Below are positions 7,287-44,760 of a stretch of 45,541 nt of DNA, piece after piece. The notes beneath the pieces are model-generated. The model searched no databases and had not been told where the DNA came from. It worked only from the letters and a program-made list of their open reading frames with translations. The translations under genes were made by a program, and so were the position numbers. Location: the NCBI GenBank assembly GCA_027620815.1, contig JAQCDH010000002.1, forward strand, positions 1 to 45,541, in the 5' to 3' direction. Positions within the stretch are counted from its first letter, which is position 1. Each line of letters starts with the position of its first letter. This DNA is from Bacillota bacterium (lineage in GTDB: Bacteria > Bacillota_I > Bacilli_A > Acholeplasmatales > Acholeplasmataceae).

Positions 7287-8540
7287 ATGTCAACCATGAA
7301 AAATTTAGTTGGAAATGCATTGTTAGGACAATCCGGAGGTCCAACTTCAGTCATTAATGCCAGTGCCGCTGGTGTTTTTATTGAAGCACTCAACCAAGAA
7401 AACATCACGGGTGTTTTTGGAGCAGTTCACGGAATTAAAGGAATTTTAGAAGAAGATTTTATTGATATTTCTAAAGAAGATTTAGACGAGTTAAAACGTC
7501 TTAAAAATACACCTTCTTCATCCATCGGTAGCGTCCGTTATAAATTAAAAGATCCTAAAAAAGATGATTCAGAATATAAACGTTTACTTGAAGTCTTTAG
7601 AAAATATAACATCCGTTATTTCTTTTATAACGGTGGTAATGATTCCATGGATACCTGTAATAAAATCTCTAAATTCTTTAAAAAAGAAGGCTTTGATTGC
7701 AATGTCATGGGGGTTCCTAAAACCATTGATAATGACTTAAATGTGACCGATCACTCACCAGGATACGGGAGTGCTGCGAAATATGTTGCAACCACATTTA
7801 TGGAATTATTTCATGATGCAACCGTTTATGATCAACCGATGATTACCGTGGTTGAAGTCATGGGTCGTAATGCAGGATGGTTAACAGCTGCTGCTGCGCT
7901 TGCTCAGTATAAAGGTCAAGGACCTGACTTATTGTATTTACCAGAAAAAACATTTGATCCAGAAGTTTTCTTCAGTGATGTTGATAAAGTCTTAAAACAA
8001 AAAGGAAAAGTGATAGTTGCCGTTTCTGAAGGCATTAAAACTAAAGATGGTAAATATGTTCCTGAACTGTATCAAGAACTTAAAAAAGATGCGTTTGGAC
8101 ATGCGCAATTAGGTGGAACAGCACAAGCACTTGTTTCAGAACTAGGAAACCGTTTCAATGTTAAATTACGTGCCATTGAATTTTCATTGATGCAACGAAG
8201 TGCCGCACATCTAGCTTCTAAAGTGGATGTCACAGAAGCATATAATGCAGGACGTAAAGCGGTACAAGCTGCGGTCGCTGGTGTCACAGATAAAATGATT
8301 GGATTTAAACGTGTGTCATCTCATCCTTATAAAATTAAGTATGTCAGAATCCCACTTCAAAAAGCAGCCAATGAAGAACAAAAAGTCCCTCTCCATTGGA
8401 TTAAAGAAGATAACACAGGACTCACACAAGACTATATTGATTATGCCTTACCTTTAATACAAGGTGATGAAAAAGCAAAACTAGAAGATGGACTTCCAAG
8501 ATTTGCAAAACTTAAAAAAATTAGAGTACAAAAAAAATAA
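7287..8540 (+). CDS. PPi-dependent (PPi-type) 6-phosphofructokinase
   Basis: GQSGGPTSVINASAAG N-terminus, GGNDSMDT and PKTIDNDL (Asp and Lys at the positions separating PPi-type from ATP-type PFKs), VVEVMGRNAGWL; 417 aa. Start could be the ATG three codons downstream. Confidence 0.88.
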   Translation: MSTMKNLVGNALLGQSGGPTSVINASAAGVFIEALNQENITGVFGAVHGIKGILEEDFIDISKEDLDELKRLKNTPSSSIGSVRYKLKDPKKDDSEYKRLLEVFRKYNIRYFFYNGGNDSMDTCNKISKFFKKEGFDCNVMGVPKTIDNDLNVTDHSPGYGSAAKYVATTFMELFHDATVYDQPMITVVEVMGRNAGWLTAAAALAQYKGQGPDLLYLPEKTFDPEVFFSDVDKVLKQKGKVIVAVSEGIKTKDGKYVPELYQELKKDAFGHAQLGGTAQALVSELGNRFNVKLRAIEFSLMQRSAAHLASKVDVTEAYNAGRKAVQAAVAGVTDKMIGFKRVSSHPYKIKYVRIPLQKAANEEQKVPLHWIKEDNTGLTQDYIDYALPLIQGDEKAKLEDGLPRFAKLKKIRVQKK

Positions 8541-8620: not shown

Positions 8621-11600
8621 TTATGGTAACAATCCGAGTAAACTATCAATAATACCAGAATCTAATTCTTCAAGTAGTTGTAGAATTGCTGCATCATTCA
8701 CATCATTTTCATCAAGTCCTGTTATAACAGCTTGTAGACTTGTCACATCTGTAATGTTAAGTAATTCAACTGCTTCTATCACTGCTAAAATTTCTTCTTG
8801 AGTAATTTCACCAGTTACTGCTAATACTTCATTAGGAATCGCAACAGATTGTTGATTTTGAATGAGACCATCAATAACAGCGTATAAGTATGCTGAGGCT
8901 AAGACAGTTTCTCTTTCAGCAGGAGTTAATGCTGTAAAGACTTCAAATGAGAAATCAAGTTCATCTATTGTTGTAATTTCAAGGACAGCAAACGCTTCAA
9001 CAAGATTTCTTAATTCTTCAGCAGTTAATCTTCTTTGACCATCCACAACAACAAAGCTATCTGATGGTAAGTTAAATGACTCTGGTGTTTCACTAAATAA
9101 GTCTAATACTGCTTCAGATAAGAAGAGTCTTGAAAGTTTTTCTCTTAAGTAACTTGATGCTAAGAAACGATCTAAGTCATCTTCGTTTGTATCTGCATTG
9201 ATGTTTTCACCAATTAAATCAGTAATGAAATTAAAGACATTTTCATCAAGTGCTGTTGGATCAACTGGAACATACGTCACTGCAGTTAATAATGCTTTAA
9301 GTTCTGCTCTTGAAATATATTCGACACTAAATCCTTCGTCAGCTTTAAGATCACTTGGAACGCCTAAATCAACATTACCAAATAAATCTACAAGCGCTTC
9401 TGGTAAGAAAGGTAATAAGACATCATCTAAGTTTTCATTATCTAAGTATTGACCAATCACTGTGTATACAATATTTGAATTTAAGATGACATCAATACGT
9501 TGATTTTCAAAATCATCTGTGACTGCATAGCCTCTTAATAATCCGAGTGCAGTTGTAATACTTGGTGATTCTACTAAGTCTGCCATCATCTGTCTTACTG
9601 TGTCTATATCCATGAGTCCTAAGACATACAAGACATCTGCAAGTGCTTCAAGTTCAGAAACAAGAACAAATCCATTTGCATCTAATAATGTAGCATCAAG
9701 TTCAACGAATGTTGAAGGGACAGTTGCGATATCTTGACGATCATTTGCAACTTTAATTGCGTATGCTTGTAGTGCTTCATTTTGAATGGCATTCGATGCA
9801 TAACTCATTAAGATATTAGAATCAAATAAGACATCTAACTCTCCAGCTGCATATAAATCATCTAATGTATTAAAGGTAAATAATCCATTAGAGTTTAAGA
9901 AAACATCTGCAATATCTCTTAACGTTAATAATTCTGAAGCAAGTAATACTTTATTTGCATCAAGTGCATTTTCACTTAATACGAATAATGAACTTTCAAG
10001 TGGAACGTTATTGAGTAAATCGCTATCAATTGCAACAAATTCTCTTGCAATTTCAATGACTGTGTCAAGCACACTATATGGCTGGTAAGAGACATTGAGT
10101 AATTTATCAGCAACAGCAACAATAAAGTCTGATTCTAAAATAAATTCTAAGTTTGTTTTTCCATCAGTTCCTACCAAGTCTAAAACTTCAATGAAGTCAT
10201 TTAATCCTGCTAAATCTAATGTGTATTGATTTTCTGAGAAATCAATTCTTAAACCAGCAAGTATCAATGCTTCCAAGTCATCACTGTTCATAATAAACAT
10301 ATCATATTCAGTACTGAACGTAAATAATCCATATTTAGGAGATGTGAAGTCTAAGAAACGACCATCGATATCAAGTGATGCTTCAAAGAGTGTAACTGCG
10401 AAATCATTTGCAACGTTTGCTAACATGTTTCTATTGAGTGAACTTGTTAAGAAGTTAGATACAACGCCTAATACGATTTCAGATTCAGCAAGTAATGCAA
10501 CATCTGCTGGATCTACTGCTCTAACGAGACCAGCAAATTCTGCGACTTCTTCAACAGTTCTTTCTAGGAATAAATCTCTAACAATATTTAAACCAGAAGC
10601 ATCTTTAACATCAACTAAGATCGAAATAAGAGGTTTTAATAACGCTTGTAACGAATTATTTTTTAACGTATTATTTTCTATAATATTTGCAGGTAATTCT
10701 AATTCATATCCATAGACATTTTCAACAATGAGTTGTCCTAGTTCAAATAATTTTAATGCAGATGCTCTAAAGATTTCAGAATCATCTAATACACCAAATG
10801 TTTGATTAAATACAACTGGATCATTAAATGGATCAATCACATCTAGTGATAATGTTCTAAAGCTTGAATTTGTAAATTCAGTGACTTTGTTTGAAGAAAG
10901 TTCAATATTTTCATTGAGTGCACCCGCAAATGCAATGACAAACTTCACAAGTCTGTTATATTCTGCTGTCCATGCAACACCAGATGCAAATTGTACTTCA
11001 AGTGATGCTGGTACATCAAAATACAATCTTAATGCTGGCATATCTTCTACCATTAACATGAGTTGTTTAAAGTTTGCTACAAGTAATTTAGAATATGTAT
11101 TGCCTTCTTCAGCAACCATGAAGTTTTCAAATGCAGCACTTGTTAATAGTGGACCAAAATCTAATCCTTCAACGCCTAAAACTTCATTTGTTTCTTCATG
11201 TAAATAATGTGAAGTTGCATACACAAGATTTAAGGCAACACCTAATTCATAAGCTGCATCAAAATCTTGTGGAACAACAACATTCGCTGCTCCTAAATTA
11301 TTAAGTGCTTCTAAGAACAATGAACGGTCTAACGCTTGAACGAGTTGTAATGATGTTAATCTTTGTACAACAATTGTTGCATCCGCAGCTGATAAGCTAC
11401 CAAATGCATTTCCTGCTGCAGCTAAGTTTTCTAAGCTTAAATCTTGAGAAATGGTATATAGTCCTTCAAGCGATGTAAATTTGTACCCAACTTCAACAAC
11501 ATCGAGTAAGGTTAGGATTTCTTGAATGACATTAATACTTACTTCAGTTCCTAAAATAGGTTCAACAAGTGTATTTAATGTATGGTCTGCAGTAGCGACT

Positions 11601-14600
11601 AAAATTTGTGAGTTTGCAACAATTCCACCAACCACAAGTTTCAATGTACCAACGTTTGGTCCTAAAATATCATCAACAAGGGCAAGTGTGTCAACTAGTT
11701 CTCCACCTGTAGATGCGAGTGCATCTTCAAGTCCCCAGAATGATAACTCATAATAGCCTGCTGCGAGTTCAGCTACTGTTAAAAATAATGTTACAAGTAC
11801 ATTATATTCAGCAGCCCACGCGGCACTTTCAGGACTTGATGCAAGTAATACTTCAGGAACAATAATCGTTTCATCTAAGCCTGCTTCAATAAGTGCAGAT
11901 TCAATAGAGTATGCTAAATTTGGAACGAGTAATTGTGAGTTTAATGTGCCCTCTTGAACAAGTAATAATCCTGCAAGTGCATCACTCAATAATAACTCCG
12001 TAAAATCAACATCTTCAATTGGCGTTAATCCTGGTTCCATGTTTTCATGTAAGTATGCAGACATTCCGTATACTAAATTAAATAAGAATTCAACTTCAAG
12101 TGCAGCATCAAAACTTGCAGGAACATAAACGTTTTCAACACCTAAGAAAGCAAGAAGACTTTCTGTGTTTGCTTGATCAAGTGCTCCTAAAAGTTGTAAA
12201 TCTTTAAGTGCTGCAATGAGTGTTCCAAATTCAGTTGGTGTTAATGAACCAAATGCATAACCAAGGTTTGCTGATCCTCTTAAGTCTAATGCCTCAGTTG
12301 CACCTAGAAGTCCTTCTAATGTTGTAAATTCCGAAGTCACAACAAGAATATCAAGTAACGTATCAACCTCAGCTGCAAGATCAAGTGCGAGTGCACCTGT
12401 GTTATCTGCAAGTAATGTTAACAATAACGCTTGAGTATCTGCGTCTTCAACAACAAAAGGTAGGACATCTTCGAAGTTGTTTCCAACTTGTTCAATGAGT
12501 TGAGACTCAGAAAGTAAGGTATTAAGTGCGCTTCTTAATGATGCAAGATCTGCTTCATTTGCTAGAACATCGTCTATGAATGCAACTGCATCTGTTTCAC
12601 CAGATGTAAGATCTAAAATATCTTGAAGTGTTGCAAAATCATAAACATCTTCTAAAACATCAAGTAATGTATTAAGTTCTTGACCTAAGTCAATGGTCAA
12701 TCCATTTTCATCAAATAATAATGTGTCTAATAAATCTTTTGTTTCTTGATCTTCAACAAATGCATCAAGTAATACAGGTGCTGCTTCATTGAGTGCTGCA
12801 TTGACTAAAACTGAATCGTCAAATACATATCCAACAAGTAGGCGTACAGTTGGTAGGTTATTTTGAGCGACACGGTCTACAAATTCAATCACATCTTCGT
12901 TACCAGCAAGTAATTCATTCGCTGTTAACGTAACAAGTGCTCCAAAGATTTGTCCAAAGGTATCAAATTCAGCATCAAAATCTAAATTATTAACAGTCTC
13001 ATTTAAAGCTTCATCAAGTTCAGCTGCAACATCAGCGTCAAATGCACTGTATAATGCAAAGTCAACTGCTGTAGGAAGTAATGCTGAAACGATTTCAACT
13101 TGTGTGACTTCATCTAATGTTGCATTTAAGAAATCTTCACCATCTTCAGTGAGTAATGCATCAAGTGCGTCTTCTTCAAGAAGTTGAGCAACACTAAATG
13201 AACCATACTGAGATAATACAACTTCTAATAAGTCTGCAATATTGTAAAGATCACCATTTTCTCCATAGAAGAATTCTGTGTCGTTTAAAACTTCAGCGAG
13301 TGCATCTTTTAAATATGCTTCGCGTTCAGCAACTGGTAACCATTCGATATTTGCTTGAACATCTTCAAGTTCTAAGACGTATTCTAAACCTACGTTTGCA
13401 ACTTTAATGAGTTGTAAGTCAGCAAGTGCTCTTAAGACATCAGCAAGTGCAGTTGCTTGTGCATTGGTTAAATCAGCAAGTGCTTGAGTATCTTCAGCAA
13501 GTGCCAAGACGTCTTCTAAGTCTCCTACTGCAACAACTTTTTCAAAAATAATACCTAATGCTGCAAGTTCTAACTTCCAGTCAATGTCAGCAAGTTCAGC
13601 AAGTGCTGCTTGTGTTGCTGCACCATCAGATAACTCTAATCCAGTAAGCTCTTCGAGTAAACCATCCGCTGCAAGATCAGATCCCACTTCTAAGAATGAA
13701 ATAAGAACACCTGAATCACCAACAAGTCCTAAAATGTCTTGAACGGCTTCAACATCATCACTACTTAAAGTGTTGACATCAAAATTCTCTGATAAATAAC
13801 CAGCTTCATAAGCACTTTGTACAATATCAGTAACAACATTTAGCTCATCGCGTAAATTAAAGTTTTGAGTTTCTGTTAACTCTGTCTCAAATACCCAATC
13901 AAATAATCCTTCTTGAATTCCAGCAAATACCGGTCTCACTTGTAGTGGTTCAATAAGTTCATGTGCATCTACTTCACCAAAAACATCCCCACCATCTTCG
14001 AAATTTAAATTATTGGTAGTGGATGCTAAAACGACAAGTGGTAATAATAAGAAAATCGCAGTAATAAATCCACGGACAGCACCAAATGCTCCACCGATTA
14101 AACGATCGGTAGATTTTTTAATGACTTTCGCATGAATAACAGGATTTTTAATGGTTTCAGCACCATTATTTTCTTTATCTTTTTCAGTCGCAAACGTAAC
14201 ACTTTCAACTTTGAATACTTTTTGTACATGTTTTTCTAAAACATATTTGTAAAGTAATCCAAACCCAACGAAGGAAATAAACCAACGTACGACAGTGTAT
14301 AAAACTAAGAATGTAACAATTCTTACAAAGACATCAACAAGTCCATAAAGTAATGTAATCACTTCTGTTCTTGTTAAATAAGCAAGTAGTTCTGTTGATA
14401 CAGTACCTGATAAGTTTGCTTCAATTTGAGCAATCAAATCTGCTTGTGGTAATGAATTCACAACAGAAACTCCTGATACAATCCATAAAATGATAAATGA
14501 TAAAATAATGTTGACGAGTGTAAAATATCCTGATTTTGCCGCTCCTCTAAAATATCCAAGAGCAAAATGTAGCAATACAAAAAGGATAATCACACCCCAT

Positions 14601-14614
14601 TGAAATAATTGCAT
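8621..14614 (-). CDS. Giant (1997 aa) CvpA-like membrane-anchored acidic repeat protein
   Basis: Residues ~1-205 have several hydrophobic helices and a CvpA-like pattern (LGYFRGAAKSGYFTLVNIILSFII...; STDRLIGGAFGAVRGFITAIFLLLPLVV); the remainder is an Ala/Leu/Asp/Glu-rich degenerate repeat region. SD-like AGGAAAGG upstream. Confidence 0.8.
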   Translation of the reverse strand: MQLFQWGVIILFVLLHFALGYFRGAAKSGYFTLVNIILSFIILWIVSGVSVVNSLPQADLIAQIEANLSGTVSTELLAYLTRTEVITLLYGLVDVFVRIVTFLVLYTVVRWFISFVGFGLLYKYVLEKHVQKVFKVESVTFATEKDKENNGAETIKNPVIHAKVIKKSTDRLIGGAFGAVRGFITAIFLLLPLVVLASTTNNLNFEDGGDVFGEVDAHELIEPLQVRPVFAGIQEGLFDWVFETELTETQNFNLRDELNVVTDIVQSAYEAGYLSENFDVNTLSSDDVEAVQDILGLVGDSGVLISFLEVGSDLAADGLLEELTGLELSDGAATQAALAELADIDWKLELAALGIIFEKVVAVGDLEDVLALAEDTQALADLTNAQATALADVLRALADLQLIKVANVGLEYVLELEDVQANIEWLPVAEREAYLKDALAEVLNDTEFFYGENGDLYNIADLLEVVLSQYGSFSVAQLLEEDALDALLTEDGEDFLNATLDEVTQVEIVSALLPTAVDFALYSAFDADVAAELDEALNETVNNLDFDAEFDTFGQIFGALVTLTANELLAGNEDVIEFVDRVAQNNLPTVRLLVGYVFDDSVLVNAALNEAAPVLLDAFVEDQETKDLLDTLLFDENGLTIDLGQELNTLLDVLEDVYDFATLQDILDLTSGETDAVAFIDDVLANEADLASLRSALNTLLSESQLIEQVGNNFEDVLPFVVEDADTQALLLTLLADNTGALALDLAAEVDTLLDILVVTSEFTTLEGLLGATEALDLRGSANLGYAFGSLTPTEFGTLIAALKDLQLLGALDQANTESLLAFLGVENVYVPASFDAALEVEFLFNLVYGMSAYLHENMEPGLTPIEDVDFTELLLSDALAGLLLVQEGTLNSQLLVPNLAYSIESALIEAGLDETIIVPEVLLASSPESAAWAAEYNVLVTLFLTVAELAAGYYELSFWGLEDALASTGGELVDTLALVDDILGPNVGTLKLVVGGIVANSQILVATADHTLNTLVEPILGTEVSINVIQEILTLLDVVEVGYKFTSLEGLYTISQDLSLENLAAAGNAFGSLSAADATIVVQRLTSLQLVQALDRSLFLEALNNLGAANVVVPQDFDAAYELGVALNLVYATSHYLHEETNEVLGVEGLDFGPLLTSAAFENFMVAEEGNTYSKLLVANFKQLMLMVEDMPALRLYFDVPASLEVQFASGVAWTAEYNRLVKFVIAFAGALNENIELSSNKVTEFTNSSFRTLSLDVIDPFNDPVVFNQTFGVLDDSEIFRASALKLFELGQLIVENVYGYELELPANIIENNTLKNNSLQALLKPLISILVDVKDASGLNIVRDLFLERTVEEVAEFAGLVRAVDPADVALLAESEIVLGVVSNFLTSSLNRNMLANVANDFAVTLFEASLDIDGRFLDFTSPKYGLFTFSTEYDMFIMNSDDLEALILAGLRIDFSENQYTLDLAGLNDFIEVLDLVGTDGKTNLEFILESDFIVAVADKLLNVSYQPYSVLDTVIEIAREFVAIDSDLLNNVPLESSLFVLSENALDANKVLLASELLTLRDIADVFLNSNGLFTFNTLDDLYAAGELDVLFDSNILMSYASNAIQNEALQAYAIKVANDRQDIATVPSTFVELDATLLDANGFVLVSELEALADVLYVLGLMDIDTVRQMMADLVESPSITTALGLLRGYAVTDDFENQRIDVILNSNIVYTVIGQYLDNENLDDVLLPFLPEALVDLFGNVDLGVPSDLKADEGFSVEYISRAELKALLTAVTYVPVDPTALDENVFNFITDLIGENINADTNEDDLDRFLASSYLREKLSRLFLSEAVLDLFSETPESFNLPSDSFVVVDGQRRLTAEELRNLVEAFAVLEITTIDELDFSFEVFTALTPAERETVLASAYLYAVIDGLIQNQQSVAIPNEVLAVTGEITQEEILAVIEAVELLNITDVTSLQAVITGLDENDVNDAAILQLLEELDSGIIDSLLGLLP

Positions 14615-14745: not shown

Positions 14746-17667
14746 TTACGTTTTTTTAACATTTAAAAATGATTGACCAACAAATGACGTTTTTTCTTTA
14801 TAAATTTGCTTTAAAAGGCGCACCTTAAATAGCCCATTTTTGATGATGTGTTTATACAATTCTAATGTCTTCGGAAAAACAGTCATTTCAAATGCTTCTT
14901 TACCATCATGACAGTTTAAAAAGGCCATATCTTCATTGTTTTTTGTTTTGATGATTTTCATTGAAACAATGCGTATGTAAAGGTCTTGGGTTGACGTGAT
15001 ATCACTAATATAAATCGTTTGTATTTTTTGAAGGTATACATTTGGATCATAAAGTATTTGAAACCCTAATGCTTCTTGCTCTAATTTGGCAAGTGTTTCT
15101 AAATCATATTCGTCATGTTCTGTCATTTTGACTTGATCCAAATAAAGCATATATTCTATGTCACTTAAGCTCACATGCTCAACAAGTGTCTGTCTCGTAT
15201 GTCCTAAATCATCAAAACAACCTGCATGTATCATTTGAAGCATTTGACGCTCAGAAACATAATCTTTTAGCCACGTCTTCATTGTTATCCATGAATTTAG
15301 GTCACCTTCTTTTCGATGACTTAAAATATTTGCAACTGTTTTTTGACCAATGGATTTTACTATGGTAAGTGGAGGTAATAAATGACGGGCATCGATTATT
15401 TGAAACGCGTCTGTACTCGTTTTAATATTTGGCGGTAACAGTGTAATGCCTTGTGTTTTTAAATCTTTCATATAGTCATCAATCGCTGTTTCACTACCAA
15501 TCACAGAATTCATAAGCGCTTGCATAAAATAAATATAATAGTTGGCTTTTAAATAGGCCATTTGATAAGCAACCATGGCATAAGAAACACTATGGCTACG
15601 GTTAAATCCGTAATCAGAAAAACGAACAATTAACTCATAAACATCCGTGGCATCTTTTTCGCTTTGTCCATGTTGTATTGCTTTAGAGATGAAGCGAGTT
15701 GCTTCACTTTTTAACAATGCTTCATCTTTTTTAGAAATACCACGACGTAATAAATCTGCTTCAGCTAAACTATACCCTGCAAAGGCTTGCGCGATTTGCA
15801 TGATTTGTTCTTGATAAATAATGATGCCAAACGTTGATGTTAAAAAAGGAATAAATGAAGGATGCATATGTTCATATGATTGACCATGACGTCTTTCAAC
15901 ATACGTATCTATAAACGCCATAGGTCCTGGTCGATATAAGGCAAGTAATGCGACAATATCTTCAAAATGAGTAGGCTTTAGTTGTCTTAAGACTTGTCTC
16001 ATCCCATACGATTCTAATTGGAAAATACCATCCGTTTTTGCATCTGTTAGTAAGTTGTATGTTTTTATATCGTCATAAGGAATCGTTGATAAAGAAAAGT
16101 TTGGATCCGTTTTTTGAATTTCTTTTTTTACATCATCAATGATTTTTAAATTTCTAATGCCTAAAAAATCCATTTTAAGTAACCCAATGGATTCTAATTC
16201 TTTTGCTTCAAATTGTGTTTGATAAAAAGGATAAGGTCCTTTTGTGAGTGGGATATATTGATCGAGTAGTTCTTTAGATAAAATCACACCCGCAGCATGC
16301 GTCCCTGTTTGTCTAGGAAGTCCCTCAATTTGATTGACTGCTTCATAAAATGTTACCATTTCATGATCAAGGGGATCGATCTCATCTTTCGTAATGGCTT
16401 CAGTAAAGCCTTTAATACGAGATGCAGAAAGTCCGTATATTTTAGCTAAATCACGAATAGCAGACTTCTTACCAAATGTTTGATAGGTCACAATGGATGC
16501 AATATGTTCACTCCCAAATCTTTTTTGCGCATACAAAATGACATCATCTCGTTTATCATCTGGAAAATCCATATCGATATCAGGCATCGATGCGCGTTCA
16601 GGATTTAAAAATCTTTCAAAGAGTAAATCATAATGAATCGGATCGACTTCAGTAATACCTAAAACATAAGCTACTAAAGATCCAGCAACACTTCCTCGTC
16701 CTGGACCAACATAAATATCATGTGTTTTTGCATATTTAATGATGTCATACACAACAAGAAAATAATCTTCAAATCCTAATGAAAAAATGACGGATAATTC
16801 AAACTTAAGCCGTGATTGATACTCTTCATTAAGTACTTTATCTTTGTTTTTAAAACGTTTTTCAAGACCGACAGATGCGAGTGACTCTAAGTATTCTTTA
16901 GAAGTTACGCCTTCATCTAGAGGAATTTGAGGTAACTTGAACTTAGGAAACTTTAAATCAAATTGGTGGTGACTAATAAATGCTTCCATATGACTCTGAA
17001 GTTCTGGATACGATTGATAGATGGTTTTTAATTCTTGTTGAGAAAGAAGATGAAACTTTCCTTCTTTTATTGGATGATTCCCAATTTGATGGAGATTTTT
17101 TGACATCGTAACATCAGTATCATTCACATGATGACTAAGATGTACTAAAATCGCAGGTATGAGATATTCTTGACTCAATTTTAGATGCAAAGACTTATAA
17201 AATGTGTCATCATCTTCTGATTGAAACGAGACCCCTATTAAAAAATGTCTAAATTTATTTTTAAAAGCAAGCACAAGTGATTCGTAACGATCTTCATCAT
17301 ACACATTGTTCACACGATATAACGTGACACTTAATCCTTCTTGATAGCGCTCTAAAATTTCTAAAGAAACATGTTGATCTTGCATCAGTTGATTGATTAA
17401 AATTAAATGTTGATACCCAGTTTGATTCATCACCCCAAGAAACACGTCATACTCAATATCTTCATGGTGAATCATGATGTGTTGCGTTACAATTGGATGG
17501 AGGTTTTGTTTTTTAGCAGTTTCAAAAAAGGACAACATCCCATGAAGATTTTCATCTGCCAAGATAACGGTTTTAAATTGTCTACTTTTCGTTTCTTTAA
17601 TGATGGTTTCAATTGTAAGTGTGCTTTTCAGAAATGAAAAGACACTTTGAATTCCTAAATAACTCAA
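14746..17667 (-). CDS. dnaE: DNA polymerase III alpha subunit, DnaE type
   Basis: YVGPGRGSVAGSLVAYVLGITEVDPIHYDLLFERFLNPERASMPDIDMDFPD, LYRPGPMAFIDTYVERRHG, FNRSHSVSYAMVAYQMAYLKA; no exonuclease insertion. Confidence 0.96.
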   Translation of the reverse strand: MSYLGIQSVFSFLKSTLTIETIIKETKSRQFKTVILADENLHGMLSFFETAKKQNLHPIVTQHIMIHHEDIEYDVFLGVMNQTGYQHLILINQLMQDQHVSLEILERYQEGLSVTLYRVNNVYDEDRYESLVLAFKNKFRHFLIGVSFQSEDDDTFYKSLHLKLSQEYLIPAILVHLSHHVNDTDVTMSKNLHQIGNHPIKEGKFHLLSQQELKTIYQSYPELQSHMEAFISHHQFDLKFPKFKLPQIPLDEGVTSKEYLESLASVGLEKRFKNKDKVLNEEYQSRLKFELSVIFSLGFEDYFLVVYDIIKYAKTHDIYVGPGRGSVAGSLVAYVLGITEVDPIHYDLLFERFLNPERASMPDIDMDFPDDKRDDVILYAQKRFGSEHIASIVTYQTFGKKSAIRDLAKIYGLSASRIKGFTEAITKDEIDPLDHEMVTFYEAVNQIEGLPRQTGTHAAGVILSKELLDQYIPLTKGPYPFYQTQFEAKELESIGLLKMDFLGIRNLKIIDDVKKEIQKTDPNFSLSTIPYDDIKTYNLLTDAKTDGIFQLESYGMRQVLRQLKPTHFEDIVALLALYRPGPMAFIDTYVERRHGQSYEHMHPSFIPFLTSTFGIIIYQEQIMQIAQAFAGYSLAEADLLRRGISKKDEALLKSEATRFISKAIQHGQSEKDATDVYELIVRFSDYGFNRSHSVSYAMVAYQMAYLKANYYIYFMQALMNSVIGSETAIDDYMKDLKTQGITLLPPNIKTSTDAFQIIDARHLLPPLTIVKSIGQKTVANILSHRKEGDLNSWITMKTWLKDYVSERQMLQMIHAGCFDDLGHTRQTLVEHVSLSDIEYMLYLDQVKMTEHDEYDLETLAKLEQEALGFQILYDPNVYLQKIQTIYISDITSTQDLYIRIVSMKIIKTKNNEDMAFLNCHDGKEAFEMTVFPKTLELYKHIIKNGLFKVRLLKQIYKEKTSFVGQSFLNVKKT

Positions 17668-17708: not shown

Positions 17709-18135
17709 ATAGTTTTGCAAATGCCTCACCAAAAGCGACACATAATTCGTCATCTTCTTCAGTGGGTGTATAGTTCACTATCAATCCTTTTTGAAATAAA
17801 TTTGCACCTGTTACATTAAGTCGATTTTCCCATAATGTCATCCACTCACCTTCGCCCCACCCATAAGAACCAAAAAGGCCAACATGTTTACCAACGATTA
17901 AACCTGTAATTTCTTCAAAAAAAGGTTCAAATTCAGTGTCCTCTAATTCATCTTCACCCATAGAAGGACATCCTAATAAAATTTTATTATAGTTAGAAAC
18001 TTCAGATGGATCAACTTCATCAACAGTTGCCATTTTAACAACTACATGATTGTTTTCTAATCCTTCTTTAATTTTTTCAGCCATCATCTCAGTATTTCCT
18101 GTGCCGCTCCAATAGACTATTAATACATCTGCCAT
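17707..18135 (-). CDS. Flavodoxin
   Basis: IVYWSGTGNTEMMAEKI FMN-phosphate loop, GCPSMGEDELED, FGSYGWGEGEWM; 142 aa. Confidence 0.95.
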   Translation of the reverse strand: MADVLIVYWSGTGNTEMMAEKIKEGLENNHVVVKMATVDEVDPSEVSNYNKILLGCPSMGEDELEDTEFEPFFEEITGLIVGKHVGLFGSYGWGEGEWMTLWENRLNVTGANLFQKGLIVNYTPTEEDDELCVAFGEAFAKL

Positions 18136-18169
18136 GATTTAATTCTCCTCATTGTGATCGCTAGAATCA

Positions 18170-18198
18170 TTATAAATGAATTGTTGGTGTTTGTCAAA
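18170..18198 (-). promoter_or_regulatory. Perfect consensus sigma-A-type promoter for flavodoxin
   Basis: Minus strand TTGACA (18198..18193) - 17 nt - TATAAT (18175..18170). Confidence 0.85.
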
Positions 18199-18262
18199 GC
18201 GGTCAACTGAGAAATATGTCTTTAAAATAAAACTAATATTAGAAGGAAACATGTTTTTTTAC

Positions 18263-20098
18263 TTATGTTTTTAACCAATCTTCAATGAGACCTTGTTGAC
18301 TGAAAAATTGATTTTTATAGAGTTGATAATAATGACCTTTTTTAGCAATGAGCTCTTCATGCGTCCCTTTTTCAATGATTTTTCCCATTTCAAGCATCAC
18401 GATGATATCTGCTTCAACAATCGTTGATAATCTGTGTGCAACAATAAAACTTGTTCTGTCTTTTAAAATTGTTTTCGTTGCCTCTTGAATGATGAGTTCA
18501 GACTCTGAATCAATTGAGGAGGTAGCTTCATCTAATATTAAAATACGTGGGTTTGCAATGAGTGCTCTTGCAAAAGAAATTAATTGTTTTTGTCCAATCG
18601 ATAATAAATTCCCGCCTTCACCAACTTCACTATCATATCCTTTTTCAAGCGTCATAATAAATGGATGGAGTCCAATCGCTTTAGACGCTACGATGACTTC
18701 TTCATCAGTGGCATCTAAACGTCCATATAAAATATTTTCTTTGATACTTGTTGAAAATAATTGCGGACTTTGAAGGACATATCCAAGTTGTTGATGTAAC
18801 CACTGAAGACTTCTTTCTCTGTAGTCCTTGCCATCAATTTCAATACGTCCACTTTTTGGCTCATAAAATCTAGATAATAAATTAATCAGAGTTGTTTTAC
18901 CAGATCCAGTGTGACCCACTAAGGCAACACTTTGACCTTTTTTAACATCTAAATTAAAATGATCTAAGATGATTTCGTCATCTTTATAATAAAAGGTTAA
19001 ATCTTTGAAAGAAACTTGTCCTTGAATCGTTTCCCAGTTGTCTTTTTTTGTGTGCAGTAATGATCCATATGCATCTTCAACTTCTTTTTTATCAACGATT
19101 TCTGGTTGCGTCTCAATGAGTTCAACAATACGTTCAGCAGATGCTTGCGCATTTTGTAAATCCGCAATTTTTTCTGAAATCACAAGCATTGGTTCAAAAA
19201 AGTTAATGGTATACGCAATAATAAGTTGTAGCGTCCCAACTGTAATGATTTGATCAAGTACAGCAATACTTCCTGTTACCATCGTTACTGAAACTGCGAC
19301 ATATGCAATCACAAGTAATACCGATGTATACACAGCTGAAAGCATAATTGATTTAATACCTGCACGTTTTAAGTTTCCCGTTGACTGATAAAAATCAGTA
19401 AAATTTTCTGTTTCAATCACTAAACTTTTGGTTGTTTTTGCACCTAAAAAGGCTTCACTAAATTGTGCGGTGACATGTGAATTATGTTTTTTTGATAAAC
19501 GTTCTTGCGTCAAAATTCTTTTTCTAAAAAACTGAGAAATTAAAAACATAATTGGAATAATCGTAACAATAATCAGTCCTAAGCGAATATTGGTAGCAAG
19601 TAAAGCAACCGTAATAAAGATCATGGAAAAAAACGCCCAAAGCATATCTAGTAAACCCCATGATATGACCTCAGATAACCTGGATGCATCAGAAGTCATG
19701 CGCGCCATCACCCAGCCTTGAGGTGTTTTATCAAAATAACTAAAAGATAATCGTTGTAAGTTATCAAAGGCTTGTCTTCTCAGTTCATGAGATACCGTTG
19801 CTTCAATTAAAATGGCTTGTTTAATAAAGGCCCAGACGAGAAGTCCAAATCCACTTGCAACAAGGACACTGATGATAATAAATGGAATGAGTGTTTCCAT
19901 GTTTTTTTCAATGAAAAAAACATCGATCGCATACCGATTGAGCTGCGGGAAAATAATGTCTAAAACAGTAATTCCAGCCATAAATAAACCCAATTTCACT
20001 AAATGAGATTTGTTTTGAAAAACGATATCAATGACACGCTTCCAAGTAGAAAGTTGGACTTTTTTTAATCCATCAAATTCATCTTGCATCTTCGTCAC
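18263..20098 (-). CDS. ABC exporter half-transporter (permease + NBD), heterodimer subunit
   Basis: Six-TM region then VGHTGSGKTTLINLL Walker A, degenerate signature LSIGQKQ, Walker B ILILDEATSSID, H-loop VAHRLST. Confidence 0.93.
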   Translation of the reverse strand: MTKMQDEFDGLKKVQLSTWKRVIDIVFQNKSHLVKLGLFMAGITVLDIIFPQLNRYAIDVFFIEKNMETLIPFIIISVLVASGFGLLVWAFIKQAILIEATVSHELRRQAFDNLQRLSFSYFDKTPQGWVMARMTSDASRLSEVISWGLLDMLWAFFSMIFITVALLATNIRLGLIIVTIIPIMFLISQFFRKRILTQERLSKKHNSHVTAQFSEAFLGAKTTKSLVIETENFTDFYQSTGNLKRAGIKSIMLSAVYTSVLLVIAYVAVSVTMVTGSIAVLDQIITVGTLQLIIAYTINFFEPMLVISEKIADLQNAQASAERIVELIETQPEIVDKKEVEDAYGSLLHTKKDNWETIQGQVSFKDLTFYYKDDEIILDHFNLDVKKGQSVALVGHTGSGKTTLINLLSRFYEPKSGRIEIDGKDYRERSLQWLHQQLGYVLQSPQLFSTSIKENILYGRLDATDEEVIVASKAIGLHPFIMTLEKGYDSEVGEGGNLLSIGQKQLISFARALIANPRILILDEATSSIDSESELIIQEATKTILKDRTSFIVAHRLSTIVEADIIVMLEMGKIIEKGTHEELIAKKGHYYQLYKNQFFSQQGLIEDWLKT

Positions 20099-35104: not shown

Positions 35105-35133
35105 TTGCATAAGAAATGAAATCATGCTATATT
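35105..35133 (+). promoter_or_regulatory. Promoter for the PrsA-like lipoprotein
   Basis: TTGCAT - 17 nt - TATATT with TGn extended -10 (TGCTATATT). Confidence 0.65.
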
Positions 35134-35172
35134 ATACGTGCTTGTATTGAGATTGAAGGAGTGAATAAAACA

Positions 35173-38154
35173 ATGATAAATCATAACAAAAATATAAAGC
35201 GAGTGATGACTCTTATTTTTATTTTAGGTCTCACATTCACATTGGTTGCTTGTGGCAATCAAAATGCAGTACCGTACGGAAATGTTTCAGATGAAGCATA
35301 TGTTACTTTTGGTGATGTTAATGTTACTGAAAAAGAACTATATGACAAATTAAGATTCCAATCTGCTGATCTTTTATCAACAATGATTGATGAAGTTGTT
35401 TTTGCAGAAGCAATGAATGATGTTCGCCAGTTAATTATTAACGGTGATGTTTTTTATAATGAGTTTCTTGATGAAACCATTAATAATGCAATCTTTCAAC
35501 AAACAGATTTAGAGGCATTAGATAATTTACTTAATAACAACGAAACGCGTTTACTTAGAAGCGTTGAACAATATGTTGATTCACTTTATTTAATTGATCC
35601 TTCTGTGAACAGAGATACGTTGTATCAAGATATCGTAAACATGGATCCTATGTTTGAAGATTATGCGTCCATTCCAGAATTATTAGATCGTTATATTTTG
35701 CGTGCTGGTCAACGTTATTATGCATACAACAATTTACTCTTAGAAGTTGAAGATTCAGAATCTACACAATTTGTTGAAGAATCTGATGTTGTTGCATACT
35801 ACAAATCAAACAACGAAGGACGTTATGATGTCGAAGTTTTAGTTGTACGTTTTATTAATTTAAACGAAGCAAATGCGGCATTGTATGAAGTTGGATTAAA
35901 ATCAGATGCGCGTGGAAATTGGTATCAAGTTCCTGATGTGCGTATTGCTGATCCTAACAACCCAGGTTATGTTGACTTAGACGATACTTCTTCTGAAGGA
36001 TATCAACATGTTGTTGATATTTTAACGGATTTAGATTTATTAGATGATGTCATCGCATCAAGAGTTGAAGAAGAAAACTTATTAAGTTCTCAAGAATTTG
36101 CTGATTATTATGCGCGTTATTCGATTTCAACAACAAGAACGTCAGGGGCATCTGATGTTGCATTACCTAATAATAACGTAAAAGTTAAATTTGTTGAAAT
36201 TTATAATTTATTAAATCCAGCAACTCAAATACAAATTAATAATGATGGTACCATTTCAGGGGTATCAACTGAATTCAAGACCACCTACACGTATGATGAA
36301 CTTAATGATTTAAATTCAACGTTAAGATCACATGTTTATACAACTTTAACTTCTGAAAATCGTCAAGATGAAGAAGACGCAAATAATCCATATTCTTCTC
36401 GTGTTCAAACATTTGGTTCATCTCGTTACTTAATATTTAAATTAAGTGATGATGGTGCATCACAAGAAGGTATCTTAGTTGATGATCTAGAAACTGAAGA
36501 TGAAGATGAAATCTTTAGCGACACTGCAACAGAATTATACGATGAATTAAGAGCTGAAATCATTGACAATAGACTTACAGATAGTTATGTAACAAGTCAA
36601 GTTGAAGCACGTTATGAAGAATTAACCGTTGATATTTATGACCCAATCATTCGTGCCTTTTTTGATCAAACATTCAACTACAATGGTAGTGATGATAACA
36701 AAGATGGTAATGTTGTTGCAACCATTAAAGATTCCTCTGATGTATTAGATGATTCAGATATTTTAGTTGATGATTTATTCCAACGATTATCAGACCGTTT
36801 CGGTGTCAACTTATCATTAGATGTTGTGATTAATAAATATTTTGAAGCTCAAGAGACATACGCTATTACAGATGAAGAATTTGCAGAATTTGAAGAACAA
36901 TTTGAAGAAATTATTAGACAATTCTCTGCAGACCAATTTGTTTCAAACGGTTTTCCAGCTTCAATGGGTCGCGAACAATTCTTGATGTTGGCATTTGGTG
37001 TGACTTCTAATGCTCAAGCAGTGAAAGAACTTTATGTCTATCCAGAATTACGTGCACAATATTTAGAAGATTACGAAGCACACTTTACAAACATTTATCA
37101 AGCATTTACTGATTTAGCTGCATTACAATATGATGCGTATAAATCTACACGTGTGTCACACTTACTTGTTTATTTTGATCAAGATGGGAATGGTTCTCCT
37201 GACAATCCTCAAGACTATTTAGATACACTTGATGAAGCAACAGTCACTGATATCAAAGAAGGACTTGCTGAACTCATCGCAGATGTTTATGCACAAGTTG
37301 GAGATTTTAGAAGTGAAGCTGAAGCATTCACGACATTAGCAGAATTATTTAATTCATCCGGTCGTATTGAACGTGGTTCAAATACTGCACCATATGACTT
37401 ACAAATCGAATTAGATTATGCAAAATATCGTCAACTTGGTTTCTACTTAAAATATGAAAACATATCTTCAGCAATTACAAACAAATCAAACTTTATTACC
37501 AACTCTTCAACACTCGATCCTGTTTTCTATAACCGTGCGATTCAACTCCATGATTTCATCGTTGGAGATGGTATTCAAGATCAAGTCGAACTTCCTTATA
37601 TCGATATGTATGATGACTTCACATTCAATGCATTAGATATTGCAGCACAATTAGATGATGTACAATCTAGTTTTGGATGGCATTTCATTGTTACAACATC
37701 TGTCACTGATGCACCATCAGCAGTTTATGAAGCGTCTTCAGATACTGATGAACGTTATACATTTGAGTTAGATGGCGTCACCTACAACGTATACAATGAA
37801 GGTCCAGAAAATGGAGGCTCAGATACACTCACACGTAACCAAGTTGAGTATTATGTACGTCAAAGTTTAACAGACGAAGGTCCATCCGTTCCAAGTGCTG
37901 TTTCTACTGCAATTACGAATTACTTATCACCAGTATTATCAAGATATCAAAATACATTCATGCAACGTGAACTCATCTTTAGATTACTAGAGGCTGACTT
38001 AAACTTTGCAAGCGAAGCAAATAACATACGTTTTGATATTATTAGAAACATCAACGATAGCCAACTTAATGAATACTTACTTTCAGATCTTGCCTATTTT
38101 GATGAAAACTATGAAGCACTCTTTGCAACATGGTTTGACTTACTAGAACAATAA
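35173..38154 (+). CDS. Large PrsA/parvulin-like foldase lipoprotein
   Basis: ATG at 35173 (MINHNKNIKRVMTLIFILGLTFTLVACGN) gives a signal peptide with lipobox LVAC; parvulin-like RVSHLLVYF ... FGWHFIVTT pair; TDxAyVTFGDVNVTEKELYDKL PrsA-like start. Track ORF starts upstream at 35116. Confidence 0.75.
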   Translation: MINHNKNIKRVMTLIFILGLTFTLVACGNQNAVPYGNVSDEAYVTFGDVNVTEKELYDKLRFQSADLLSTMIDEVVFAEAMNDVRQLIINGDVFYNEFLDETINNAIFQQTDLEALDNLLNNNETRLLRSVEQYVDSLYLIDPSVNRDTLYQDIVNMDPMFEDYASIPELLDRYILRAGQRYYAYNNLLLEVEDSESTQFVEESDVVAYYKSNNEGRYDVEVLVVRFINLNEANAALYEVGLKSDARGNWYQVPDVRIADPNNPGYVDLDDTSSEGYQHVVDILTDLDLLDDVIASRVEEENLLSSQEFADYYARYSISTTRTSGASDVALPNNNVKVKFVEIYNLLNPATQIQINNDGTISGVSTEFKTTYTYDELNDLNSTLRSHVYTTLTSENRQDEEDANNPYSSRVQTFGSSRYLIFKLSDDGASQEGILVDDLETEDEDEIFSDTATELYDELRAEIIDNRLTDSYVTSQVEARYEELTVDIYDPIIRAFFDQTFNYNGSDDNKDGNVVATIKDSSDVLDDSDILVDDLFQRLSDRFGVNLSLDVVINKYFEAQETYAITDEEFAEFEEQFEEIIRQFSADQFVSNGFPASMGREQFLMLAFGVTSNAQAVKELYVYPELRAQYLEDYEAHFTNIYQAFTDLAALQYDAYKSTRVSHLLVYFDQDGNGSPDNPQDYLDTLDEATVTDIKEGLAELIADVYAQVGDFRSEAEAFTTLAELFNSSGRIERGSNTAPYDLQIELDYAKYRQLGFYLKYENISSAITNKSNFITNSSTLDPVFYNRAIQLHDFIVGDGIQDQVELPYIDMYDDFTFNALDIAAQLDDVQSSFGWHFIVTTSVTDAPSAVYEASSDTDERYTFELDGVTYNVYNEGPENGGSDTLTRNQVEYYVRQSLTDEGPSVPSAVSTAITNYLSPVLSRYQNTFMQRELIFRLLEADLNFASEANNIRFDIIRNINDSQLNEYLLSDLAYFDENYEALFATWFDLLEQ

Positions 38155-43351: not shown

Positions 43352-43945
43352 TCATGATAAAAACTTAACTAATGATTTTTTCAATATCACCAACTGTAAC
43401 CATATACATAAACTTATTGTAAAAAATATCGTGGTTGGGTGGATATAGAAAAAAGCAAAAATTAATACAATAACTGGCGCTAACAACTGAATATTACGCC
43501 AAATATTTTGATGCATTAATATAAAGATGATCACGATGAAGGACTGATCATTTTTAATTATAAATAGTGTAATAACTCCTAATGAATAAATCGTACCAAT
43601 CAAAAATTCGTATGTGATAACAATTAATAGGATGATAAGCCATGTTATATTGCGTTGAATCGCATATTGAAATGCTATGAATAATCCGAAAACATCAATA
43701 ACAACCATCACTGATATCAGTACACGTTTAAAGAAATGACGTTTAAATTCGTCTATAAATGTATGAATTACATACGTTTGTTTTTTTATATTGGACAATG
43801 ATGAAATAACCTTATATAACGCGAGTGTTGCACTCCCTAGGGATAATAAAATCCCTAGGAATGATGCAACAAACCATATTAACGTGACATAAATAAAATC
43901 TAAGTATGTCTTAATGCCCTCCTTGATTGTATAGGAGGATGTCAC
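43352..43945 (-). CDS. YesL/DUF624-like membrane protein
   Basis: Multiple TM helices; GIKTYLDFIYVTLIWFVASFLGILLSLGSATLALYKVI resembles the DUF624 N-terminus; sugar-transport neighbourhood. Confidence 0.7.
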   Translation of the reverse strand: MTSSYTIKEGIKTYLDFIYVTLIWFVASFLGILLSLGSATLALYKVISSLSNIKKQTYVIHTFIDEFKRHFFKRVLISVMVVIDVFGLFIAFQYAIQRNITWLIILLIVITYEFLIGTIYSLGVITLFIIKNDQSFIVIIFILMHQNIWRNIQLLAPVIVLIFAFFYIHPTTIFFTISLCIWLQLVILKKSLVKFLS

Positions 43946-44760
43946 ACTTTTTTCTTAGTTAATGCGATTGCTAATCCTGCAACAGCAACAACGCCTACAC
44001 CAATAGCTACAAATAAAACTGTATTGTTTGTAGGTGTTTCATAACTATAGGTAAGAGTAAATGAATCTTGATCTATAAAAACAACTGCACCTGTTGTTTC
44101 ATCATATTCTGAAGTAATCTCTAAAGTTTCATCACCAAGCATTGTCTTGTATGTTGCAAATTTTGTAAGGGATGCCTTATCAACAAATCCAGCTAAATCA
44201 GCTGCATCAAAAATTGAGTTGAATATACCATCAATAGCCCAATCAAAAGATGCTTCTAGAAGAACTTTAGATTCAGTAAGTGACATATACGTCATCCCTT
44301 CCTCTTCTGAAGTTGTAAATGAAGGTTTTTCAGCATCAGTAAAATCATCCCAACTTAAATTTGGTGATAAATTTACAAGTTGCTCATATTTTATTAAGAA
44401 GTCTTCAAATGAATCAAATGTCATTCTTAATGTGAAAATACGTTGATTTCCTTCTGTTTCCATTGGTAAAACTTCCATAAATGATGGTGCATTGGTCTCA
44501 AACCAATCTTGTAAAGCTTCTACTCCGCCTGTAATATGTTTATCATTAAGCACAGGTCCATTCCCTTTAGTTCCATCCGGATCATCAGGATTTATTATTG
44601 GAGTTTGGCTTAATGAATCGTCATATACAACGACAAAATAATCACGATGTCCCATACCGTTTTCATCCATTACGGTATCCACCCCTATTTCACCTGGCCA
44701 GCAGGCAGTCAATAATAATGTAAGCACAATGATGACGAATAATGTAAAATTTCTTTTCAT
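43942..44760 (-). CDS. Lipoprotein with C-terminal transmembrane helix (LppM-like architecture)
   Basis: Signal peptide with lipobox LLTAC, acidic ectodomain, C-terminal TM NTVLFVAIGVGVVAVAGLAIALTKKKV. Confidence 0.75.
   Translation of the reverse strand: MKRNFTLFVIIVLTLLLTACWPGEIGVDTVMDENGMGHRDYFVVVYDDSLSQTPIINPDDPDGTKGNGPVLNDKHITGGVEALQDWFETNAPSFMEVLPMETEGNQRIFTLRMTFDSFEDFLIKYEQLVNLSPNLSWDDFTDAEKPSFTTSEEEGMTYMSLTESKVLLEASFDWAIDGIFNSIFDAADLAGFVDKASLTKFATYKTMLGDETLEITSEYDETTGAVVFIDQDSFTLTYSYETPTNNTVLFVAIGVGVVAVAGLAIALTKKKV

Follow-up and report, generated by a model that had tools for sequence, protein, structure and literature searches.

A giant protein with a CvpA-like membrane anchor, encoded beside dnaE in Acholeplasmataceae and predicted to extend outside the cell

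A sequence-only reading of the 45,541-nucleotide stretch of DNA analyzed here (the window), from an uncultured, wall-less Bacillota bacterium of the family Acholeplasmataceae, had singled out one 6-kb gene that joins a multispanning N terminus to a long acidic region, raising the question of whether such a gene is real and what kind of protein it encodes. The gene is indeed a single intact open reading frame, which starts with ATG, runs for 1,997 amino acids without an internal stop, and begins with four transmembrane (TM) helices (Table 1). Compared with its nearest relative, most of its segments have dN/dS values of 0.06 to 0.20, indicating a translated gene under purifying selection, and we conclude that it is a genuine, intact, and conserved gene. 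We consider it fairly probable that the product is a single-copy, membrane-tethered cell-surface protein, in which a CvpA-type anchor would hold a length-variable arm acting in adhesion, as a fringe, or as a scaffold.

The source assembly is fragmented (863 kb, 85% complete, with the window as its contig 100). A misassembly or fusion artifact joining two genes, a danger that the earlier reading had itself named, is excluded: synteny is conserved across independent genomes, and other genomes have an intact locus from which the gene is cleanly missing. Most genomes of the family that have a homologue carry it immediately, or almost immediately, downstream of dnaE, with a phosphofructokinase gene on its far side wherever the contig extends so far, while dnaE and the phosphofructokinase gene are adjacent or nearly so where the giant gene is absent (L139, L140, and L142). 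Some genera carry the gene elsewhere, for example g11 (A. laidlawii-like genomes). A functional link with the upstream genes was considered and set aside: the extra adjoining gene of several relatives encodes an ordinary cation-efflux transporter and is absent at the corresponding place in the window. At positions 18135 to 18263, the window also lacks a gene of ~709 amino acids present in two congeners (L027, 1927 to 4056; L028, 6967 to 9096), whose positional counterpart in L034 encodes bacterial-surface Ig-like domains.

Table 1. Features of the giant gene and its immediate neighbors (positions in the window)
Feature	Position	Strand	Remark
Complete gene, giant CvpA-anchored protein, 1,997 aa	8621..14614	-	
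dnaE (DNA polymerase III alpha), upstream neighbor	14746..17667	-	Synteny kept
Phosphofructokinase, downstream, convergent	7287..8540	+	Synteny kept
CvpA-like four-TM anchor, residues 1-212	13979..14614	-	
TM1, residues 2-23	14546..14611	-	AlphaFold2 helix and hydropathy
TM2, residues 25-48	14471..14542	-	AlphaFold2 and hydropathy
TM3 hydrophobic stretch, residues 84-122	14249..14365	-	AlphaFold2 and hydropathy
TM4 with DRLIGGAFGAVRG motif, residues 168-202	14009..14113	-	AlphaFold2 and hydropathy
Conserved membrane-proximal all-helical domain, residues 213-690, predicted extracellular	12545..13978	-	
Internal repeat copy 1, residues 567-672	12599..12916	-	hhalign self-comparison, Prob 88-89, E about 2e-6
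Internal repeat copy 2, residues 668-775	12290..12613	-	hhalign self-comparison
Large duplicated block copy 1, residues 749-973	11696..12370	-	hhalign, Prob 99.3, E 2.8e-20
Large duplicated block copy 2, residues 1032-1255	10850..11521	-	hhalign self-comparison
Extra stretch, residues about 1406-1516, ~one repeat length, relative to sister protein (1,887 aa)	10067..10399	-	
C-terminal repeat unit 1, residues 1598-1693	9536..9823	-	Repeat HMM
C-terminal repeat unit 2, residues 1712-1816	9167..9481	-	Repeat HMM
C-terminal repeat unit 3, residues 1826-1910	8885..9139	-	Repeat HMM
C-terminal repeat unit 4, residues 1906-1987	8654..8899	-	Repeat HMM

Hydropathy places four strong TM stretches within residues 1 to 203; two weaker hydrophobic stretches farther on fall within acidic leucine-rich helices and are unconvincing as membrane spans. 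The N terminus had been called CvpA-like, a call that stands as a remote relationship and falls short of Pfam membership. Against Pfam Colicin_V (PF02674; gathering cutoff of 29.3 bits), the N-terminal domain scored 17.5 bits (E of 0.0042) and the full protein 13.5 bits, both below the cutoff, with weak matches in 12 of 23 homologues (best E of 0.0013) and a match of the TM4 region to Colicin_V positions 92 to 124. A profile-profile comparison by hhalign of 24 members with 28 ordinary CvpA proteins from relatives aligned TM1 to TM4 collinearly over 126 columns (Prob 96.3, E of 1.8e-9). Giant and ordinary forms have four TM helices in identical order, with a conserved RG after TM1 and a DRxxGxxxG motif before TM4. 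On this profile evidence, the anchor is a remote relative of the CvpA/Colicin_V family rather than a Pfam-grade member. Ordinary CvpA proteins, however, are characteristically small and free of a large extra domain (about 140 to 295 amino acids in relatives), whereas the giant has 1,997 amino acids with an 1,800-residue arm. In other families of the class, we observed mid-sized proteins (563 to 583 amino acids in L112, L113, L116, and L119; >650 in L126 and L128) with CvpA domains above the Pfam cutoff and C-terminal domains. Adjacent large CvpA-like reading frames (1,840 and 846 amino acids in L150, 1 to 8319; 2,960 and 998 in L152, 1 to 12160) suggest duplicated family members in other lineages.

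The TM part of MarP (Rv3671c), a mycobacterial membrane serine protease, belongs to the CvpA family. Like the giant, MarP has four N-terminal TM helices and then a domain outside the membrane, in its case a periplasmic protease (PMC4992679). MarP is a trypsin-like protease of about 400 amino acids, whereas the giant has an all-helical, partly repetitive arm; Pfam and NCBIfam scans found no MarP-type trypsin-like domain after TM4 and no enzyme family, in line with the absence of a recognized enzyme motif reported earlier.

The main rival to a surface arm is a reading in which the CvpA-like TM domain does the work, as an exporter of small solutes or a module for stress resistance, with the arm serving it as a sensor, a lid, or a receptor of some partner outside the cell. 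Between sister species, no part of the protein varies less than the TM domain (96.7% identity, dN/dS of 0.064), which has eight invariant residues (Q5, G20, G24, R171, G174, G178, G182, and P192), including those of a glycine-rich RxxGGxxGxxRG motif, but an anchor would equally need conserved glycine packing. Export of a limited set of substrates has been proposed for E. coli CvpA, which has weak similarity to transporters (PMC6705877), and most family genomes have no ordinary CvpA above the cutoff. However, transport by CvpA is itself a hypothesis, and the need of a transporter for a variable arm of 1,000 to 4,000 residues is unexplained. We therefore consider this reading unlikely and prefer the CvpA-type domain as the anchor of a surface protein.

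How far this arrangement extends was addressed by surveying relatives. Matches were found in 27 of 61 genomes (that of the window and 60 related ones). In a survey for CvpA-giant fusions of the kind suggested by the sequence-only reading, 75 of the 160 genomes searched across the order matched the anchor profile, including 46 from the family of the window, mostly in frames longer than 1,000 amino acids. Among the genomes listed, none of the g8 group (0.5 to 0.9 Mb, probably phytoplasmas) had an anchor-profile match. Genome G063, which we take to be probably Acholeplasma laidlawii PG-8A, carries a member of 1,477 amino acids. Named carriers include Mycoplasmatota bacterium zrk7, Tenericutes bacterium MO-XQ, and Peloplasma aerotolerans M4Ah, a coccus that lacks a cell wall and is in culture (PMC11122141). 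In a phylum-wide sample searched with anchor plus proximal domain, 36 of 295 genomes matched, including remote giants in other families. Our literature search found no paper on a giant CvpA-anchored family, which is widespread and apparently undescribed.

The families whose homologues are strongest (f1 and f5) have no penicillin-binding transpeptidases, and the giant is of very large size and encoded by one gene copy, as might be expected if it were an envelope-stabilizing scaffold in place of the missing cell wall. However, remote giants occur in transpeptidase-bearing genomes (G045, G039, G132, G376, G357, G382, and G177), so loss of the wall does not by itself account for the giant. The gene is also missing from many wall-less genomes of the family, in several of them from an intact dnaE-phosphofructokinase locus. 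We regard a wall substitute as quite improbable.

For a protein that meets the cell's surroundings, the long region should lie outside the membrane. Residues 201 to 1997 (1,797 amino acids) contain 17.8% D+E and 3.2% K+R, for a net charge of -261, and are rich in L (17.3%), A (10.8%), V (9.6%), E (9.0%), and D (8.8%), with little K (1.3%) or R (1.9%). Loop 1 (after TM1) and loop 3 (TM3 to TM4) carry a net positive charge in all 24 members, and loop 2 (TM2 to TM3) and the segment that follows TM4 carry a net negative charge in 23 of 24; by the positive-inside rule, the N terminus and everything after TM4 are therefore predicted to be outside. This is the CvpA-type pattern of positive loops inside and C terminus outside, shared by the giant family as a predicted topology. 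The whole window protein is devoid of cysteine, as had been noticed for the long region. Cysteine makes up 13 of 57,643 residues (0.023%) in 25 giants versus 139 of 30,879 (0.45%) in homologues of other window genes at the same loci, a 20-fold deficit. Cysteine exclusion has been described for exported proteins of Gram-positive bacteria, with which this deficit agrees. Loop charges and cysteine deficit, taken together, predict that the long region lies outside the cell and put that part of the sequence-only reading on a wider footing than the single motif first cited. That the region is instead a cytoplasmic scaffold with inverted topology, as the lack of a cleavable signal peptide and the frequency of helical-repeat proteins inside cells might allow, is very improbable given the charge distribution in essentially all 24 members, the exclusion of cysteine, and the periplasmic domain that follows four N-terminal TM helices in MarP (PMC4992679).

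An acidic composition may characterize this organism's exported proteins and not the giant family as such, because two predicted lipoproteins of the window are likewise acid-rich and K/R-poor (D+E/K+R of 18.2/6.4% at 35116 to 38154 and 16.2/5.9% at 43942 to 44760), while most cytoplasmic neighbors are balanced; the homologues in L039 and L051 are much less acidic. The first of these lipoproteins (forward strand, 1,012 amino acids) has a signal like that of lipoproteins (LTFTLVACGN) and matches nothing in Pfam; to the eye, its beginning looks similar to that of foldase lipoproteins of the PrsA/SurA type. The second (reverse strand, 272 amino acids) has an acidic middle and a C-terminal TM helix and was assigned to no family. 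No LPXTG sorting signal, as in wall-anchored surface proteins, was found in the window protein, and one LPSTG was found among 24 homologues.

The extracytoplasmic region had been described as a repeat ectodomain, which is accurate for its internal repeat pair, its duplicated blocks, and its four C-terminal units (Table 1) but not for residues 213 to 566, a conserved domain that is not repetitive. Residues 234 to 690 are conserved across the family, with D518 and E549 invariant and F238, D239, F242, E257, S301, W425, Y434, P514, D580, F598, and E646 nearly so. This conservation suggests a specific partner and is not explained by a mere stalk. Farther out, an iterated profile recognized repeats of ~80 to 105 amino acids, 4 in the window protein and 17 to 23 in several homologues; counts range from 3 to 23 among repeat-bearing members, and none was recognized in a few homologues. 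Stretches of four repeats were aligned in 19 rows. Homologue lengths range from about 1,100 (1,123) to more than 4,450 amino acids, the longest ending at a contig end, and the duplicated blocks and repeats help explain this range.

AlphaFold2 models of residues 1 to 690 (with 23 homologues; mean pLDDT of 79, pTM of 0.66) show helices nearly throughout, four in the membrane and 29 further ones, and residues 1590 to 1997 are likewise mostly helical (mean pLDDT of 73, pTM of 0.71). The arm is thus predicted to be all-helical and solenoid-like, where "solenoid" describes a model of moderate confidence. A match of the long region to a described family would have counted against the sequence-only reading, and none was found: no Pfam or NCBIfam model matches the arm, a sequence search of the PDB gave chance-level hits only, and Foldseek searches with the models found no significant match in the PDB (best E of 2.0 and 1.2) or among viral models. 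Helical solenoids were frequent in the chance-level Foldseek list, as would fit a solenoid without proving one. Known helical-repeat families (HEAT, ARM, TPR, Puf, and others in Pfam/PDB) gave no profile or fold match, and we found no known adhesion domain or enzymatic motif in the giant. Pfam matches of repeat-rich homologues to DUF7779, McpB_HAMP, and Haem_bd were rejected as sums over repeats in which no single stretch passes.

We asked whether core and arm share a history. Identity over residues 1 to 690 tracks dnaE identity (Spearman of 0.88; 105 pairs from 15 genomes), and trees of the two recover the same small clades; the core is therefore mainly vertically inherited. Within the genus, the gene is a mosaic. 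Between the window and its sister L027, DNA identity is 85 to 96% over residues 1 to 975 and 52 to 88% over the rest, with synonymous divergence of 0.27 to 0.36 before residue 975 and 0.67 to 1.03 after it. L027 and L028 are 91 to 95% identical in DNA over residues 1276 to 1997 but only 67% identical in dnaE, while L028 and L029 are 63% identical over residues 1 to 75 and 90 to 96% over residues 376 to 1125. Exchange of modules between species is the simplest reading of these sequences; they come from metagenome assemblies, in which chimeras at repeats are possible, and several homologues end at contig ends inside the giant gene. Such a within-genus mosaic is as expected of an exposed, diversifying protein, and the differences in the arm from species to species suggest that it meets the outside world. 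The window dnaE is 63% identical in amino acids to those of L028 and L029, and the neighboring ABC transporter 89%, which may point to rapid evolution of dnaE, or to its replacement, within the genus. Because dnaE is so divergent relative to the adjoining transporter, it may overstate species distance in this genus.

Very large extracellular proteins with rod-like alpha-helical repeats and sequence exchange between lineages have been described as Giant1 to Giant3 of Apilactobacillus kunkeei (PMC12863079). Compared by description only, they resemble the present family in size, helical repeat regions, and interlineage exchange but differ in having N-terminal beta-solenoid domains, other C-terminal domains, and lengths of 3,000 to 8,000 amino acids.

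Altogether, we propose that four CvpA-type TM helices, with the N terminus outside, would enter the membrane with no signal peptide being cleaved, so that the whole of the protein beyond TM4 would lie outside the cell. Next to the membrane would sit a conserved domain, all-helical and about 480 residues long, followed by a modular helical arm of duplicated blocks and ~80- to 105-residue repeats whose modules would be gained, lost, and exchanged between species. The extended arm could then contact substrates, other cells, or neighboring envelope molecules, as an adhesin, fringe, or scaffold. More tentatively, the family may represent an ancient kind of surface protein found in Acholeplasmatales and in relatives that branch deeply, in which a CvpA anchor carries a giant solenoid arm of a new repeat fold and the distal modules are shuffled like those of a receptor driven by phages or predators. 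Use of a CvpA module as the anchor of a giant arm would bear on what CvpA domains do, and since carriers are in culture (Peloplasma aerotolerans and probably Acholeplasma laidlawii), location and function are directly testable. If the proposal is true, few surface proteins of free-living wall-less bacteria, a group with poorly known cell surfaces, would be larger or more conserved than these.
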